A stretch of DNA of 64,000 nt, taken from contig NZ_JAENIM010000044.1 in NCBI RefSeq assembly GCF_016595495.1, positions 62,001 to 126,000 on the forward strand, read 5' to 3'. The notes beneath the pieces were generated by a model. It was not told the origin of the DNA. It worked only from the letters and a program-made list of their open reading frames with translations, and searched no databases. The stretch is from Persicirhabdus sediminis. GTDB lineage: Bacteria; Verrucomicrobiota; Verrucomicrobiia; Verrucomicrobiales; Akkermansiaceae. A program made the position numbers and the translations under genes. Positions 44,260 through 54,301 of the stretch are shown here, piece by piece; position 1 is the first letter of the stretch, and each line of letters opens with the position of its first letter.

Positions 44260-47200
44260 ATGTCTGCTTCACGTAACTTCACCCTTTTTCTCAGCCTTGT
44301 GCTGACAGCTTGCGTGGTGGCTGAGCCCATTCAGTCATCATGGTTTACTCATTTGTCTGGCCAGTACGCCAGAGTTTATCCTACGACGGTGGAGGAAAAT
44401 GCCAACTCTCCAGCCACAACTTGGGACCACCCGACGGGAGCTGACCAGTTGGTGCCGACCTATGCAGGGGTGAGTGAAGTTTCACTGACAGCTACGGATC
44501 TGTACATCCGCACATCGGGTTTGGCCTTTCATGTGATGGGGCCGTGGTATGGGGAAAATGGTGGCTTATTTCCTAACTATCCGGCGAACATTGCTCAGAC
44601 AGCTAGATTTCCGCTAGATCCGCAGGTGGCGGCTTTGCCGAAGTCTCTAACTACAGGCGGCGCGGTTGGCTACTTTGTTGATGGGGTGGCAATGTTTGAT
44701 GCTCGGGATGCGTTTTCTTACATCAATGAGAGCGGCCGCGATGCGACTCCAGCAGATGTGCCTATCCGTGGTGATGGCATGTGGAACCGCGATGCTTACG
44801 TAAACGAATCGGTGACCTTTGATGCGGCTAATGCCCATCAAGCGGGCGCCACCCACCACTATCACGCTAATCCAACAGGACTGCGGTATTTGCTCAGTGA
44901 CTCGGTCGACTACGACTATGCTAGCAATACTTATAGCGAGAATGCTTACGGAACTCATTCACCGATTCTGGCGTGGACATTTGATGGGTTTCCGCTGTAC
45001 GGGCCATACGGGTATGCTGATCCGCTAGATCCTGATAGTGGCATTCGGCGGATGATTTCTGGCTTCCAAAAACGTGATGGTACAAATGGCTCTAGCAACT
45101 TGAATACAACGGGGCGAAGCTCACTGCCACAGTGGGTAGTAGATAATCAGAATGACCGCAGCAACCCTCTAGCAGCTGAAGAATACGGCCCCGCGGTGAC
45201 TAATGTGTATACCCTCGGTCACTACATCGAGGATTATGCCTACAAGGGTGACCTCGGGCTAACGCTTGGGGTGGATTTTGACCTCAACGAATACAATGTG
45301 CGCTGGTGCGTGACGCCAGAATTTCCAGCGGGAACGTGGGCGTATTTCTGTTGTATCGAGGCCGATGGCACACCGGCATTTCCGTATAATATTGGCCGCT
45401 TTTTCTTTGGTGAAGTGCAGGGAGCAAATGGTGTTAATTTGCCAGCTGATAGAGAAATTATCTTTGAAGGTGGCCCGGAAGCTGAGCTGAAAATGGAAAC
45501 TCCAACAGTGGATAGTGATAGTGGCGATGTGACTATCAGCTGGTCAGGGCCAGAGGGGGGCAGCTACATCGTCCAGCGGAGCGCAGACCTAGATGAGTGG
45601 CAGCTGCACCATGATGATGTGAAAAATAATGCCGGCTCATTTGGATCTATAGACGATGAAGGGCGAGCTCAGGGCGGGCCCCAGCAGTTTTACCGCAGCC
45701 AGCTAACTAGCCTAGCTCCCTTTGACGACAACGGCTTCGACTACAGTCAGCCGGTTGTGGCTGATTTCACAGCTCACTTTGACTCGCTGCCAGCTGAGGA
45801 GAAAATCGAAAGTGTGACGATTGGCAATGTGGCGGTTACTATCCTCAGCTATGATGCCGTTAGTGGCTCACTTGAGCTGACTTTTGATGAATCCTCATTG
45901 GCGGCTGGAGATTACCAAATTGCACTAACTTATCTGCCTGATAGCGGAACTCCTAGCGGACTAACGTCTACCAATGTTCATACGATTCACCCGCCACATA
46001 ATATTTTGCTGCTGATTGTCGACGACTGGGGTGTGGATTCTAGCCCGATGGACAATAACGCTCAGCTGAACCCGAGTGCGACTTTCCCGCCCATGCCTAA
46101 CCTTGAGACATTGGCTGCGCGTGGGCTCAGATTTACTAATGCCTACGCACAGCCAATCTGCTCACCCACTCGTGCGTCTATCCTAACGGGGCGTCAGGCC
46201 GCGCGTCATGGCGTAGGCACCGCAGGAGGTGCTCTGCCAGCTAGTGAGCTCACTCTACCAGAAATATTTGCCGCTGAAGGTTCACCGTACCAGCTGGCTA
46301 GCTACGGCAAATGGCACCTCGGTGGTGGCGTCAATGGCCCCGCTGAGATTGGTGGCTGGCCAGAGTTTGCCGGCATCCTCAATGGCGGTGTGAGCAGCTA
46401 TACCAGCTGGAACAAAACCGAAAATGGCATTTCCACTAACAACTACACAACCTACTCGACTACGGATCAGGTGAATGAAGCGATCGACTTTATTTCTGGC
46501 CAATCAGCAAACCCATGGTTTGTCTGGATGGCGTTTAATGCGCCGCACACACCATTTCACAATCCGCCCAGCGAGCTGCATGATTACCCCACATTACCAG
46601 AAGATGAAAATGGCGAGGTGACTGGCGCCAATCGCCGTCAGGCCTACGAGGCGGCGCTGCAGGCATTAGATACAGAAATTGGCAGGTTGTTAGCCAATGT
46701 CGATCTGGAGACGACCAATGTTATTTTGATTGGCGACAACGGCACACCGGGCGCCGTGGTTCAGGCTCCTTATGGTGAGGGACACGCTAAAGGCAGCCTC
46801 TATCAGGGAGGCATCCATGTGCCTTGCATCATCGCGGGCCCTGATGTTCGTTTCAGCGGAATGAGTCATAAGTTAGTCCATTGTGTGGATCTATTTTCCA
46901 CCATTCTGGATTTGGCAAAAATTGATGTTAGTACGGCAACGGCGGCTGTAGACGTGATCGACTCACAGAGCCTAGTGCCCGTGCTCAAAGGGCAAGATAT
47001 CGCCCAGCGCAGCATTGTTTCAGCTATCTTTGCAGATGATTTCGCCAACAGCGGTCGCACTCTAATTAGCTCGGAATACCCAGGCTATGAATTGATCGCT
47101 TACGGTGACCCTAGCAGCCTAGCTACAGCCAGCTCTTACGAGATGTACTACCTGCCAGCTGATACTAACGAACAGATGCCTCTCTCACTGCCGCCAGCTA

Positions 47201-47553
47201 GCGGAGATCACCATTTTGCCGCCTATCATGCGCTGGTGGCTAAAGATGCAGCTCTGCGGCCAGCCGCAGTAGTTGGCGATACACTTTACCTCGAGCTGCC
47301 CAATGTGACTGGCGGTGCAGGGGTGCCGAATAATGCCAACCTAGATCCTATCAGCATCACGGTGAATGGCGTGGCTGCTAGCTATATCGAGCGCTACGAC
47401 CAGACTGATACTTACAACCGCTGGTGGGTGAAGTGCACGGTGCCAGATACGCTATCAGCACCATATACCTCTGCCGTAGTCACCTTTAGTGATAACCCAA
47501 ATACCGGTGATGCTCGGGTGTTTTCCGCAAGCTCTATCATCATAGCACCCTAA
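44260..47553 (+). CDS. YHYH-domain/sulfatase fusion protein
   Basis: A 1097-aa secreted protein with a signal peptide (FTLFLSLVLTACVVAEP). Residues of about 110-390 are a YHYH domain: ATHHYHANPTGLRY near 195-208 and SPILAWTFDGFPLYGPYGY near 235-253. Residues of about 405-490 carry the module GSYIVQRSADLDEWQ...QQFYRSQL, like the C-terminal module of other proteins here. Residues of about 578-900 are a sulfatase: NILLLIVDDWG, formylglycine motif C634-S-P-T-R638, GKWHLGG, WMAFNAPHTPFHNP and LIGDNGTPG. A beta-rich C-terminus follows. YHYH domains are of unknown function and often sit near copper-related genes. The stop overlaps the next start (TAATG), so translation is coupled. A YHYH-sulfatase fusion is unusual. 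Confidence 0.85.
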   Translation: MSASRNFTLFLSLVLTACVVAEPIQSSWFTHLSGQYARVYPTTVEENANSPATTWDHPTGADQLVPTYAGVSEVSLTATDLYIRTSGLAFHVMGPWYGENGGLFPNYPANIAQTARFPLDPQVAALPKSLTTGGAVGYFVDGVAMFDARDAFSYINESGRDATPADVPIRGDGMWNRDAYVNESVTFDAANAHQAGATHHYHANPTGLRYLLSDSVDYDYASNTYSENAYGTHSPILAWTFDGFPLYGPYGYADPLDPDSGIRRMISGFQKRDGTNGSSNLNTTGRSSLPQWVVDNQNDRSNPLAAEEYGPAVTNVYTLGHYIEDYAYKGDLGLTLGVDFDLNEYNVRWCVTPEFPAGTWAYFCCIEADGTPAFPYNIGRFFFGEVQGANGVNLPADREIIFEGGPEAELKMETPTVDSDSGDVTISWSGPEGGSYIVQRSADLDEWQLHHDDVKNNAGSFGSIDDEGRAQGGPQQFYRSQLTSLAPFDDNGFDYSQPVVADFTAHFDSLPAEEKIESVTIGNVAVTILSYDAVSGSLELTFDESSLAAGDYQIALTYLPDSGTPSGLTSTNVHTIHPPHNILLLIVDDWGVDSSPMDNNAQLNPSATFPPMPNLETLAARGLRFTNAYAQPICSPTRASILTGRQAARHGVGTAGGALPASELTLPEIFAAEGSPYQLASYGKWHLGGGVNGPAEIGGWPEFAGILNGGVSSYTSWNKTENGISTNNYTTYSTTDQVNEAIDFISGQSANPWFVWMAFNAPHTPFHNPPSELHDYPTLPEDENGEVTGANRRQAYEAALQALDTEIGRLLANVDLETTNVILIGDNGTPGAVVQAPYGEGHAKGSLYQGGIHVPCIIAGPDVRFSGMSHKLVHCVDLFSTILDLAKIDVSTATAAVDVIDSQSLVPVLKGQDIAQRSIVSAIFADDFANSGRTLISSEYPGYELIAYGDPSSLATASSYEMYYLPADTNEQMPLSLPPASGDHHFAAYHALVAKDAALRPAAVVGDTLYLELPNVTGGAGVPNNANLDPISITVNGVAASYIERYDQTDTYNRWWVKCTVPDTLSAPYTSAVVTFSDNPNTGDARVFSASSIIIAP

Positions 47554-49247
47554 TGTATCGATCCGTTATTAGCCTGATTTTTTGTTTTGCTGCAAATCTA
47601 CCAGCAGAGGTGGATTTGCGGTTAAATTTCAGCCATCAGCTTAAGGGGAAAGCACTCATAGCTGATTCATTGCGCTACAAAAATGCGTCTTCTGAAGTCT
47701 ATTCATCCACTCGTCTCAGCTACCTTGTTAGTGGCATTGCATTGCATGCTGAAAATGGACAGATTTATAATGTTAGTGAGTTGGTCGGCTACATCGACGA
47801 TTCCAGTTCACGGCACAGCATCCAGCTAGCAGATGTGCCAGCTGGCAAGTACAGCGCACTGAGTTTTTACATCGGCCTAGACCAGCAGCAGAATCATTCA
47901 AATCCAGCGCTCTATCCGGCGAATCACCCGCTCAACCCTAACCTCAACAACATGCACTGGGATTGGCAGGGGGGATATATCTTCATGGCGCTGGAGGGTC
48001 ATTGCAGGCAGCCGGGGGAAAAGATGCCTACGGGGTACGCCTATCATTTTGCCAATGATGCTAACCGCACGCGAGTCATGCTGGAGGCTGAGATTGATTT
48101 GCAGACCGACTCAGCCGCGCTGATCAGCTTCGATATCGCCAAGCTTCTCTCACAGATTTCATTTGCTGATGACGGAGCAACCACTCACTCGCAGGCGGGT
48201 GATCCAGTGGCTGAGAAAATCCGCGCGGCAATTCCCAGCGCTTTCCAGCTGCAGGCTGTGGCACCAGTTAGGGCCATGCCCAGCCAGCCAGTGGTCGAAG
48301 CGATTGACCTACCAGCGAGCATCACGCCACATCCTATCACCTTGCCCAAGTACATCCCGATTCCCAAATTACCGCTAGATAATCCATTGCTCACTGAGCG
48401 AGTCGAGCTGGGTGAGATGCTCTTTCATGAAACCAAGTTGTCGCGCACTAATGAGCTCTCCTGTGCGTCCTGCCATCAGGGTGAGACTCTATCAGACCCG
48501 CGGCAATTCAGCCCGGGAGTGGATGGCAAGCATAACCAGCGGCACTCTATGCCATTGGTGAATTTGGCCTGGAAGAAATCCTTTTTCTGGGATGGTCGGG
48601 CATCCTCGCTGCGTCTTCAGGCTCTCATGCCGATTGAGGATCATCTTGAAATGGATGAGTCATTAGACAAGGTGGTGGCCAAGCTGGAAAATGATCCAGT
48701 CTATCAAAATCTCTTTGCCGCCGCTTTTGGCTCGGCCGCAATCAGCGCTGAAAACATCGGCCTCGCGATGGAGAATTTTTTACTCACCCAGATGAGTTTT
48801 GATTCTAAGTTTGACCGCGCCAGCAAAGGGCTCGACAAGCTAACAAAAGAAGAACAGCGTGGGTTTGAACTTTTTTTCACTGAGTTTGAGCCACGTCTTG
48901 GAAAGTTTGGCGCTGATTGTTTTCATTGCCATGGCGGTGCCTTGTTCACCGATCATAGTTTTCATAACAACGGACTGACTACTAATGATGACATCGGTCT
49001 AGCAGCGACTACGGGTAAAGCTAGCGACCGCTACAAGTTTTCCACGCCCTCGTTGAGAAATATCTCACTGACCGCGCCCTACATGCACGATGGACGATTT
49101 TCCTCGCTTGAGCAGGTCATCGACCACTACAATAGCCCGATAGAGGCGAGTGCAACATTGGATCCTAATCTGGCCAAACACCCACAAGGGTTGGGTCTAT
49201 CAGCTGAGGATAAAAATGCGCTCATCGCCTTTTTGAAAACTCTCTAA
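47553..49247 (+). CDS. MbnP-like domain fused to MauG/MbnH-type di-haem peroxidase
   Basis: A 564-aa secreted protein. After a short signal, residues of about 20-220 fit the MbnP copper-protein family: RLSYLVSGIALHAENGQ, the motif MHWDWQGGYIFMALEG with Trp136 and Trp138, and AYHFAND. The four-Cys motif of some members is absent. Residues of about 275-564 are a cytochrome c peroxidase/MauG-type di-haem domain with haem sites C304-A-S-C-H308 and C456-F-H-C-H460, plus MPLVNLAWKKSFFWDGRASSLR and STPSLRNISLTAPYMHDGRF. In methanotrophs the separate MbnH oxidises a Trp of MbnP to kynurenine, creating a copper site; here enzyme and target look fused. The start overlaps the upstream stop by one base. 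Confidence 0.87.
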   Translation: MYRSVISLIFCFAANLPAEVDLRLNFSHQLKGKALIADSLRYKNASSEVYSSTRLSYLVSGIALHAENGQIYNVSELVGYIDDSSSRHSIQLADVPAGKYSALSFYIGLDQQQNHSNPALYPANHPLNPNLNNMHWDWQGGYIFMALEGHCRQPGEKMPTGYAYHFANDANRTRVMLEAEIDLQTDSAALISFDIAKLLSQISFADDGATTHSQAGDPVAEKIRAAIPSAFQLQAVAPVRAMPSQPVVEAIDLPASITPHPITLPKYIPIPKLPLDNPLLTERVELGEMLFHETKLSRTNELSCASCHQGETLSDPRQFSPGVDGKHNQRHSMPLVNLAWKKSFFWDGRASSLRLQALMPIEDHLEMDESLDKVVAKLENDPVYQNLFAAAFGSAAISAENIGLAMENFLLTQMSFDSKFDRASKGLDKLTKEEQRGFELFFTEFEPRLGKFGADCFHCHGGALFTDHSFHNNGLTTNDDIGLAATTGKASDRYKFSTPSLRNISLTAPYMHDGRFSSLEQVIDHYNSPIEASATLDPNLAKHPQGLGLSAEDKNALIAFLKTL

Positions 49248-50668: not shown

Positions 50669-52504
50669 TCAAAGTCTGGTTTGGATGAGCAGGACGAGGC
50701 GCTCGATGGGGGTGAGTTGTTGGCGTTCTTGCTGGAGGGCGACGAGGATGTCTGGGGCGTCGGTGATGATGTTGTCGACGCCGAGGTCGATCATGCGGTG
50801 CATCTGCACGCTTTGGTTGACTGTCCAGACGTGGATTTGTTTGCCGGCGGCTTGGGCGAACTCGATGGTGCTGCGGTCGACTTGGCCGGCGTTGAGGCTG
50901 AGGAAATCGACGGGAGTTTCGGTGATATTGCCGATGGCCTGGGTGACGATGAGCCCGCAAATGAGCTCAGGGAAGGCGGCTTTCATGGCGAGCAGCCCGT
51001 GTTGGTCGAGGCTGGTGATGACGCATTTTTTGGTAAAATCAGTGTGGCGCAGCAGCTGGCCGACGCCTTGGATGAGGCCGTCTCGGTCGGGGCCAAATTT
51101 CAGCTCAATATTGAGCTGGATGTCGTCACCAGCCAGCTGGATGAAGTCGTCTAGGGTGGCGAGCGGCTCGCCTTTGAACTCGCTACTGAACCACGCGCCG
51201 GCGTCTAGCTGGAGGCGTTTTTCGCGGGTGAGATCAGCGACTTGAAGGTTCTCGCCAGTGATGCGTTTGAGGTCGGTATCATGGGTGATGACGAGCTCGC
51301 CGTCGGCGGTGATTTGCACGTCGATTTCGCAGAAATCCGCACCGTGGTCGATGGCTAGCTGGAGAGCGCTGAGGGTATTCTCTGGCGCGTCTATGGAGCT
51401 GCCGCGGTGGGCGGTGACGGCGACGACGTGGGTATCGCTACGGCTCTGGCTGAGCAGCCCGCTGGCTACTGAGCCGCCGATGGCGAGCAGGGCGACGAGG
51501 CCGCCAACGATGATGGTGCGGGCATTGGCGCGTGAGAGGAAACCATTGAGCCGGCAGCTGGACTCGGTCTCGGTGCATTTTTTTCCGCCACTCTGTAGGT
51601 AGAAATGGCTAACGCTGAGGCCGAGTGTGGTGCTGTAGAAGAAGCTGGTGATGGCGCTCCAGATGATCTGGCTGGCGACGAGGACGCCAGTGATGATGAG
51701 GATGAGCTGCAGCGAGCTCGGTCCGTGGTTGAGAAATAGATCGCTAGCTAGGGAGAGGAGGAAATTGACCACACTGAGCAGGGCGGTGGTGAGGGCTGCC
51801 ATGATGAGCACGAGCTTGACGGGCGCGAGGCCGAGCTGGCGTGACCGGCGCAGGCTCTCACGCATGGAGTCTGCGATGGTGAGAGATTCAAATAACAAGA
51901 TGGGCACGGCGAGGAAAGTGCGCAGGAAGAGCCAAATCCACAGCCCCGCCGTGGCGGTTCCAGCTAGGACTACGAGGGCGACGGCTACCCAGAACTCGGG
52001 TGGTTTGACGACGAGGTAGTAGTTGATATCGCGCTCGGCGGTGAGGGTGAGAAATTGGTAACCAGCGGTGGTGAGCAGCGGGATGGCGGCGATGAAGTAT
52101 AACCAGAAATAGACGACGCTGAGCTGGAGCAGTTTGACGAAGCGGGATTTTTCTATCCACAAAACGCGCAGCAAACTGGGGGTGGCCTGGTGGCTCATGG
52201 CTGAGCGGGCGATGATGATGACGCCTGAATGCTCGAAAAATAGGATGGCAAAGGTGAAGCCGATAGACACGGTGAGAAACCCGAGGCCGAGCGGCGAGAG
52301 CAGGAAGTTGGCGATGTCGTAGTTGCTGATGATGCTGTCATTTGCCCGGCCCAGCAGGTAGCTGGTGGAGAAGGCTGCCACCGGCGCTAGCAGGGTGGTG
52401 GCCACGGCGCTGAAGAGTAGCCGGATGAGGATGAACTGGATCAGGTTTTGTTTGAGCCTCAGTGGGTGAGTGATCTGGGCGAGTTCTTGAAGCTGGCGCT
52501 GCAT
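50669..52504 (-). CDS. Glycerophosphodiester phosphodiesterase with N-terminal membrane domain
   Basis: A 611-aa protein. Residues of about 20-330 hold several hydrophobic segments of the membrane domain found upstream of GDPD in some bacteria (LLFSAVATTLLAPVAAF; LLSPLGLGFLTVSIGFTFAI). After one more membrane segment (IIVGGLVALLAIGGSVASGLL), residues of about 360-600 are the GDPD TIM barrel: VTAHRGSSIDAPENTLSAL with the general acid/base His, EIDVQITADGELVITHDTDLKRITG and QLNIELK. It hydrolyses glycerophosphodiesters to glycerol-3-phosphate and an alcohol. A longer frame reaching 52924 only adds translated repeat C. The stop lies in the repeat B end. Confidence 0.88.
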   Translation of the reverse strand: MQRQLQELAQITHPLRLKQNLIQFILIRLLFSAVATTLLAPVAAFSTSYLLGRANDSIISNYDIANFLLSPLGLGFLTVSIGFTFAILFFEHSGVIIIARSAMSHQATPSLLRVLWIEKSRFVKLLQLSVVYFWLYFIAAIPLLTTAGYQFLTLTAERDINYYLVVKPPEFWVAVALVVLAGTATAGLWIWLFLRTFLAVPILLFESLTIADSMRESLRRSRQLGLAPVKLVLIMAALTTALLSVVNFLLSLASDLFLNHGPSSLQLILIITGVLVASQIIWSAITSFFYSTTLGLSVSHFYLQSGGKKCTETESSCRLNGFLSRANARTIIVGGLVALLAIGGSVASGLLSQSRSDTHVVAVTAHRGSSIDAPENTLSALQLAIDHGADFCEIDVQITADGELVITHDTDLKRITGENLQVADLTREKRLQLDAGAWFSSEFKGEPLATLDDFIQLAGDDIQLNIELKFGPDRDGLIQGVGQLLRHTDFTKKCVITSLDQHGLLAMKAAFPELICGLIVTQAIGNITETPVDFLSLNAGQVDRSTIEFAQAAGKQIHVWTVNQSVQMHRMIDLGVDNIITDAPDILVALQQERQQLTPIERLVLLIQTRL

Positions 52505-52617
52505 GGGCCCAGCATAACGCAGAATGGTGAATTGCAAATCGGCAATTAGTAAACGTCGGTGCGGTAGCTGGATGATGGTGACACCCGCTGGTGGATGCCA
52601 AGAAAGGATAGCTGAAT

Positions 52618-54260
52618 TTCTAGCTGGCTGGCGGCTGGGAGATGGCTGGAAATCTTGGCGAAAAGGCTGCGGAAAAACCCGAAAAGACCGAGGTGGTTTC
52701 AGCTGGGATGACTGTAGGTAAAGGAATGGTGGTCCAGCTAGCTGAAAAATGCCTGGCATTTTTTCATGGCCTTTAGCTGGAAATCTAGCTGGCTGGCGGC
52801 TGGGAGATGGCTGGAAATCTTGGCGGGAAGGCTGCGGAAAAACCCGAAAAGATCGAGGTGATTTCAGCTGGGATGATTGTAGGTAAAGGAATGGTGGTCC
52901 AGCTAGCTGAAAAATGCCTGGCATTTTTTATGGCCTTATGGAGCAGGAATTCCACTGCCGAAGGCATGGTTCAATGCCAGAGCCGTGCGATGGCGTAGTC
53001 ATCACGCGGGCAGCGAGGTTCATTGAGAGCTGAGCCCTGAATGGGCTCCGCATAGGTGCCGCTGTAGCAGGTATTTGTCGCCAGCAGGTCGGCTGGGCTT
53101 TCTCTCACCCTTTCAGGGTTTTGGGTCTATTGTGGGCGATTTCCCAGACCTGCGTTGGGCTTTCAGCCCTGCCTTGGTCTGGGCTGCAGTTTCTCGGTCC
53201 TTCGGACCTTTTTTCGAAAATCTATCTATCACGATAGATCGCAAAACCAGCTGGTGGATGCCGAGAAAGGATAGCTGGAAACTAGCTGGCTGGCGGCTGG
53301 GAGATGGCTGGGGATCTTGGTGAAAAGGCTGCGGAAAAACCCGAAAAGACCGAGGTGGTTTCAGCTGAAATGATTGTAGATAAAGGAATTATGGTCAAAC
53401 TAGCTGAAAAATGCCGTGCATTTTTTGCAGCATTTTTTAGCGGCATTTCACCTGCCGAAGGCATGGCTAAATGCCAGCCCTGCGCGATGGCGTAGCCATC
53501 CCTCGGGGAGCGAGGTTCACCGAGGACCGAGCCCTGAATGGGCTCCACATAGGTGTGGCTGTATAGCTGAAAAATGTCTGGCATTTTTTATGGCCTTATT
53601 GAGCAGGAATTCCACTGCCGAAGGCATGGTTCAATGCCAGCGCCGTGCGATGGCGTAGTCATCACGCGGGCAGCGAGGTTCATTGAGAGCTGAGCCCTGA
53701 ATGGGCTCCGCATAGGTGCCGCTGTAGCTGGTATTTGTCGCCAGCAGGTCGGCTGGGCTTTCTCTCACCCTTTCAGGGTTTTGGTTCTATTGTGGGCGAT
53801 TTCCCAGACCTGCGTTGGGCTTTCAGCCCTGCCTTGATCTGGGCTGTGGTTTCTCGGTCCTTCGGACCTTTTTTCGAAAATCTATCTATCACGATAGATC
53901 GCAAAACCAGCTGGTGGATGCCGAGAAATGCCAGCTAGAAACTAGCTGGCTGGCGGCTGGGAGATGGCTGGAAATCTTGGCGAAAAGGCTGCGGAAAAAC
54001 CCGAAAAGATCGAGGTGATTTCAGCTGGGATGATTGTAGATAAAGGAATGGTGGTCCAGCTAGCTGAAAAATGCCTGGCATTTTTTATGGCCTTTAGCTG
54101 GAAATCTAGCTGGCTGGCGGCTGGGAGCTGGCTGGGGATCTTGGCGGGAAGGCTGCGGAAAAACCCGAAACGACTGAGCTGTAGTTTCTCGGACTTTTTT
54201 TCGGAATCCACCATCGTGGTAGATCGCCAAGCCAGCAGGTGGATCATGAGAAATTCCAGC
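52618..54260 (+). repeat. Repeat families C and D with a 660-bp tandem duplication
   Basis: Five copies of a C element begin 'tagctggctggcgg' at 52621, 52786, 53283, 53943 and 54107; each runs through 'aaaaacccgaaaag' to the palindrome AAAAATGCCTGGCATTTTT. Two D elements (52929-53270 and 53589-53930) contain 'caatgccag', 'gggctccgcataggtgccgc' and 'tctatctatcacgatagatc' (an inverted repeat). 52929 and 53589 are exactly 660 bp apart and the following 490 bp match in register, so this is a tandem duplication. Frames across it are repeat artefacts. No gene between 52505 and 54301. Confidence 0.9.
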
Positions 54261-54301
54261 TAGAAAGTGCGGCATTTTTTATGATGAGCTAGCTGAGCCA
54301 G

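Follow-up and report, generated by a model that had tools for sequence, protein, structure and literature searches.

Organization of the fusion gene

We analyzed a 64,000-nucleotide stretch of the Persicirhabdus sediminis genome, referred to as the window. An open reading frame at positions 47553-49247 on the plus strand, present as the initial annotation had stated, codes for a protein of 564 amino acids that ORF, profile and fold matches identify as an MbnP-MbnH fusion. The protein begins with a hydrophobic N terminus, probably a Sec signal peptide (residues 1-19, 47553-47609); attachment of c-type haem requires that a protein be exported. It continues with an MbnP domain (47604-48275; residues 18-241 by fold, 21-208 by Pfam), a Pro-rich linker that sits between the two matched domains (residues 233-263, 48249-48341) and a di-haem domain of the MbnH/MauG type (residues 264-564, 48342-49244), all on the plus strand. 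A scan for promoters and terminators revealed no clear excess above shuffled sequences.

Profile searches match residues 21-208 to the Pfam MbnP family PF20243 (E 3e-35; 122 bits, the gathering cut-off being 27) and the frame also to CCP_MauG (E 4e-50). The top NCBIfam match is MbnH (TIGR04039), at 218 bits and thus under its equivalog cut-off of 363; the scores for the four-Cys MbnP family TIGR04052 (MbnP_WxW, 41 bits, cut-off 140) and for MauG (TIGR03791, 185 bits, cut-off 444) also fall short. MbnH 6e1c is the nearest solved structure by sequence (E 4e-44). An AlphaFold2 model was built on 29 fused relatives and has a mean pLDDT of 75; its MbnP half is good and the region around the second haem is poor, with pLDDT below 50 in residues 443-483 and 495-516. 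The top two fold matches of this model are MbnP 7l6g (Z 18.9, 211 residues, rmsd 3.0, over residues 18-241) and MbnH 6e1c (Z 18.3, over residues 259-564). Profile and fold evidence thus agree with the proposal that an exported MbnP domain and a di-haem MbnH/MauG-type domain form a single chain. The search for further fusions suggested in the initial annotation returned 48 distinct sequences of the same architecture, which rules out chance or an assembly artefact as the source of the fusion.

MbnP and MbnH of Methylosinus trichosporium OB3b (7l6g, 6e1c) have both folds, the WxW motif and the two haems with a Tyr in common with the fusion, but they are two separate proteins, encoded by neighbouring partner genes (PMC3621798). 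The MbnP/MbnH genes of the known system accompany many methanobactin operons.

Haem sites and peroxidase residues

Exactly two CxxCH motifs are present in each of the 48 fused relatives. In the window they are CASCH (residues 304-308, 48462-48476) and CFHCH (residues 456-460, 48918-48932), and the initial annotation had correctly recognized two such sites, as well as Trp-136 and Trp-138 discussed below. Trp-346 (48588-48590), aligned with the Trp of the FWDGR motif in classical cytochrome c peroxidases, and Glu-366 (48648-48650), aligned with the conserved peroxidase Glu, are found in all 48. Tyr-526 (49128-49130) is the predicted axial ligand, as in MauG and MbnH; it is a Tyr in 48/48 fusions and in MbnH 6e1c, and a Met in the classical enzyme 1nml. 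At the position of the distal His of 1nml, the 48 fusions have no conserved His. In the alignment, the fusions therefore combine the two CxxCH motifs and the axial Tyr of the MbnH/MauG type with the lack of a distal His, and we rejected a classical bacterial cytochrome c peroxidase on account of the Tyr at the Met ligand position and the missing His. MauG likewise is a di-haem enzyme with a Tyr ligand that oxidizes Trp in a protein, but it is a separate enzyme and its target is methylamine dehydrogenase.

A predicted copper site in the MbnP domain

We counted residues in 107 MbnP domains, of which 48 are fused and 59 separate. Both tryptophans of the WxW motif are located in NMHWDWQGGYIF. Trp-136 (47958-47960) is invariant in 107/107 domains and is the predicted kynurenine precursor; the first Trp of WxW is reportedly converted to kynurenine in MbnP, where Cu(I) is said to be bound by His, Met and solvent, and we take Trp-136 to be the equivalent residue. 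Trp-138 (47964-47966) occurs in 41/48 fusions, with Pro or Gln in the others. We thus rejected it as an essential residue, as it is missing from seven fusions; of the two Trp named in the initial annotation, the first is universally conserved and the second is not.

His-165 (48045-48047), a predicted copper ligand, is again found in 107/107 domains. The predicted second ligand, His-212 (48186-48188), is a His in all 48 fusions; separate MbnPs mostly have Met (33/59) or His (17/59) at this position. In four-Cys MbnPs it corresponds to the Met of the CM motif, which 7l6g has as well. Two further histidines mark the fusions: His-125 (47925-47927; 48/48 fused, 7/59 separate) and His-135 beside Trp-136 (47955-47957; 46/48 fused with Tyr in the other two, 7/59 separate). 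Position 134 is Met in 53/59 separate MbnPs and Leu in 44/48 fusions, with the window's protein retaining Met-134. The OB3b MbnP differs in having four Cys, with Met at the positions of both Met-134 and His-212. The four-Cys motif was not found in the MbnP domain of the window's fusion, as had been noticed before; Cys-151 is its only Cys, and 33 of the 48 fused domains have none. The earlier suggestion that the metal site may differ gains support from the alignment, with His-212 at the Met/His position and Leu in place of Met-134 in most fusions.

We predict that the copper site of the fusions is composed of two His (His-165 and His-212) and a kynurenine, because the four-Cys frame is absent and both His are invariant in all fusions. 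The CorA site consists of two His and a kynurenine (PMC3912023), and together with the conservation of His-165 and His-212 this suggests the same composition here. In methanotrophs, MopE/SACCP and CorA/CorB combine a kynurenine-containing Cu(I) site with an adjacent di-haem peroxidase gene, again as separate proteins; MopE and CorA were not among the matches in PDB searches with the window's fusion protein.

Distribution and origin

MbnP was found in 22 of 388 Verrucomicrobiota genomes, where every intact copy is fused; the exceptions are a frameshifted copy (G162) and a fragment (G175). Among 58 relatives, drawn mostly from the family and order, 25 contain fusions. MbnP occurs in 88/345 Bacteroidota and 15/349 Pseudomonadota genomes. 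No fusion was seen in these two samples, in which the MbnP open frames are too short; the single longer frame (517 aa) still has its peroxidase in a separate ORF. A record labelled Phycisphaerales (Planctomycetota; L050/G427) led to genomes that overlap with the Bacteroidota sample, and Planctomycetota therefore lie outside the phyla covered. The phylum set obtained for this record is that of a Chryseobacterium genome, and its label and genome grouping thus disagree. Of the 59 separate MbnPs read in Bacteroidota and Pseudomonadota, 57 have a same-strand peroxidase gene no more than 170 bp away; the fusion thus unites proteins that are already partners. Some Bacteroidota carry MbnP together with two peroxidases, of which the second is the one nearest to the fused peroxidase. 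Such cassettes (MbnP-CCP1-CCP2; L044-L050, L054, L071) contain two different di-haem peroxidases in tandem.

In a tree of MbnP domains, one branch splits fused from separate sequences (SH-aLRT 95), and the fusions of Verrucomicrobiota apparently share one origin. In the peroxidase tree, the fusion clade includes four nested standalone peroxidases, and the enzyme domain can thus be retained in the absence of MbnP. An AU test rejects strict monophyly of the fused peroxidase domains (p 0.005), since the clade also holds six unfused rows, two of which are contig-edge pieces. Taken together, the trees fit a single fusion event, after which a few genomes lost the MbnP half. Three of the standalone peroxidases in the clade (L031-L033, from G020, G008 and G033) come from genomes without a YHYH match.

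The fusion could instead be an ordinary cytochrome c peroxidase that scavenges H2O2 and whose accessory β domain has lost copper binding, given its membership of the CCP_MauG family and the genomes in which the peroxidase domain occurs on its own. We find this improbable, since Tyr replaces the axial Met, the distal His is missing, and Trp-136, His-165 and His-212 are invariant.

Neighbouring genes

Directly upstream of the fusion, a gene at 44260-47553 on the plus strand codes for a YHYH domain (PF14240, 5e-31, residues 115-367) fused to a CxPxR-type sulfatase (PF00884, 7e-42, residues 581-887). Its stop codon overlaps the ATG of the fusion (TAATG), and the two are therefore probably co-translated. 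The YHYH domain has invariant His and Asp residues (His-193, His-200, His-202, His-233 and Asp-242); its structure prediction reached a pLDDT of 37. YHYH proteins have been predicted to be metal-dependent hydrolases (PMC7824862). Same-strand YHYH genes are located within 1 kb at ∼15 of the 34 fusion loci read. None was seen near the split MbnP/peroxidase pairs that we read, some of which lie on short contigs. Among the 58 relatives, counted irrespective of relatedness, YHYH is present in 27/28 genomes that carry a complete or partial fusion and in 5/30 without, and a long-insert YHYH subfamily in 24/28 and 0/30, respectively. Both the neighbouring genes and the clade-wide extent of the fusion had been missed in the initial annotation.

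In a sister clade, giant ORFs of ∼2400-2950 amino acids begin 0-23 bp after the fusion (seven loci read). At loci L163, L165, L167, L168, L169, L178 and L183, the giant proteins encoded directly after the fusion measure 2377-2948 amino acids. They contain a galactose/glyoxal-oxidase-type module (Kelch and E-set), PA14 and Ig-like domains and a cytochrome peroxidase/RoxA-like domain. All eight galactose-oxidase E-set genes among the 58 relatives directly follow a fusion on the same strand, with the E-set match ∼1.3-1.45 kb past the fusion match. The giant gene shares domains and conserved ligand positions with galactose and glyoxal oxidases: the sites that presumably correspond to the Cys, Tyr, Tyr-His and His of galactose oxidase, a copper radical oxidase, are invariant in seven aligned giant ORFs. 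It adjoins the fusion as a gene of its own. The oxidase-linked fusions included in the peroxidase tree group together in a single clade (SH-aLRT 91). A YHYH and an oxidase partner do not occur together at any of the 34 fusion loci read, and no E-set match was found in the window's genome.

This near gap-free coupling to a partner gene, together with the co-occurrence of the fusion with YHYH, would also be expected if the peroxidase half modified the YHYH protein or the copper radical oxidase in a MauG-like manner, with the MbnP half as a docking or copper-delivery arm. We consider this quite unlikely, as Trp-136 is invariant although the partners vary between clades, and copper radical oxidases form their Cys-Tyr cofactors by themselves with copper and O2.

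A model for fusion function

Our preferred explanation, which we hold to be probable but with modest confidence, is that the fusion matures itself into a kynurenine-copper protein and serves a metalloprotein encoded alongside it. It would be the MbnP-MbnH pair in the form of one exported chain, whose di-haem half would activate hydrogen peroxide and oxidize Trp-136 of the MbnP half to kynurenine, either within the chain or between the chains of a dimer. The resulting high-affinity Cu(I) site would probably be formed by His-165 and His-212 in the vicinity of the kynurenine. Once matured, the protein may supply or hold copper for a metalloprotein of the same operon, the YHYH-sulfatase protein in the window and, in the sister clade, the giant copper radical oxidase. 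We infer these steps from the MbnP and MbnH matches, the conservation of Trp-136, His-165 and His-212, the MauG-type haem residues and the copper-oxidase context. The scores below the NCBIfam equivalog cut-offs and the standalone peroxidases in the fusion clade count against the model. In addition, the link to copper at the window's own locus is indirect, the neighbour being a YHYH-sulfatase and no known copper enzyme, and one enzyme per copper site appears costly if the enzyme acts only once.

A rival reading gives the protein a lasting redox role, which would keep its two halves joined. The fusion could be a working redox enzyme, in which a copper-kynurenine center exchanges electrons with the two haems and uses H2O2 on an outside substrate, Trp-136 maturation being the first turnover only. 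The H2O2 would perhaps come from the neighbouring copper radical oxidase, and known members of that family produce H2O2. The lasting 1:1 stoichiometry in 48 relatives, the direct gene coupling to an oxidase family and the cytochrome peroxidase-like domain of the giant oxidase itself are consistent with such a role; we know of no catalytic copper-kynurenine protein, however, and regard it as rather unlikely. A specific form of this idea, in which a permanent three-center redox protein (copper-kynurenine and two haems) first assembles its copper site itself and afterwards, with peroxide produced by its neighbour, works with a copper radical oxidase or a YHYH metalloprotein, is in our estimate slightly more doubtful still.

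MbnP-MbnH chemistry has so far been studied with two proteins. The natural one-chain form, fixed across MbnP-bearing Verrucomicrobiota, would allow the conversion of Trp to kynurenine and the loading of copper to be followed at 1:1 stoichiometry in one molecule. In one clade the fusion is strictly paired with a copper radical oxidase, which suggests that kynurenine-copper proteins outside methanotrophs may serve exported copper enzymes.

Downstream of the fusion, the window contains interleaved direct repeats at 52565-54266 (285 nt ×5, 300 nt ×2 at 97%, and 54 nt ×4), which precede the gene for a GDPD-type membrane protein. Since the ORF at 50669-52924 runs into these repeats, its start is probably overcalled.
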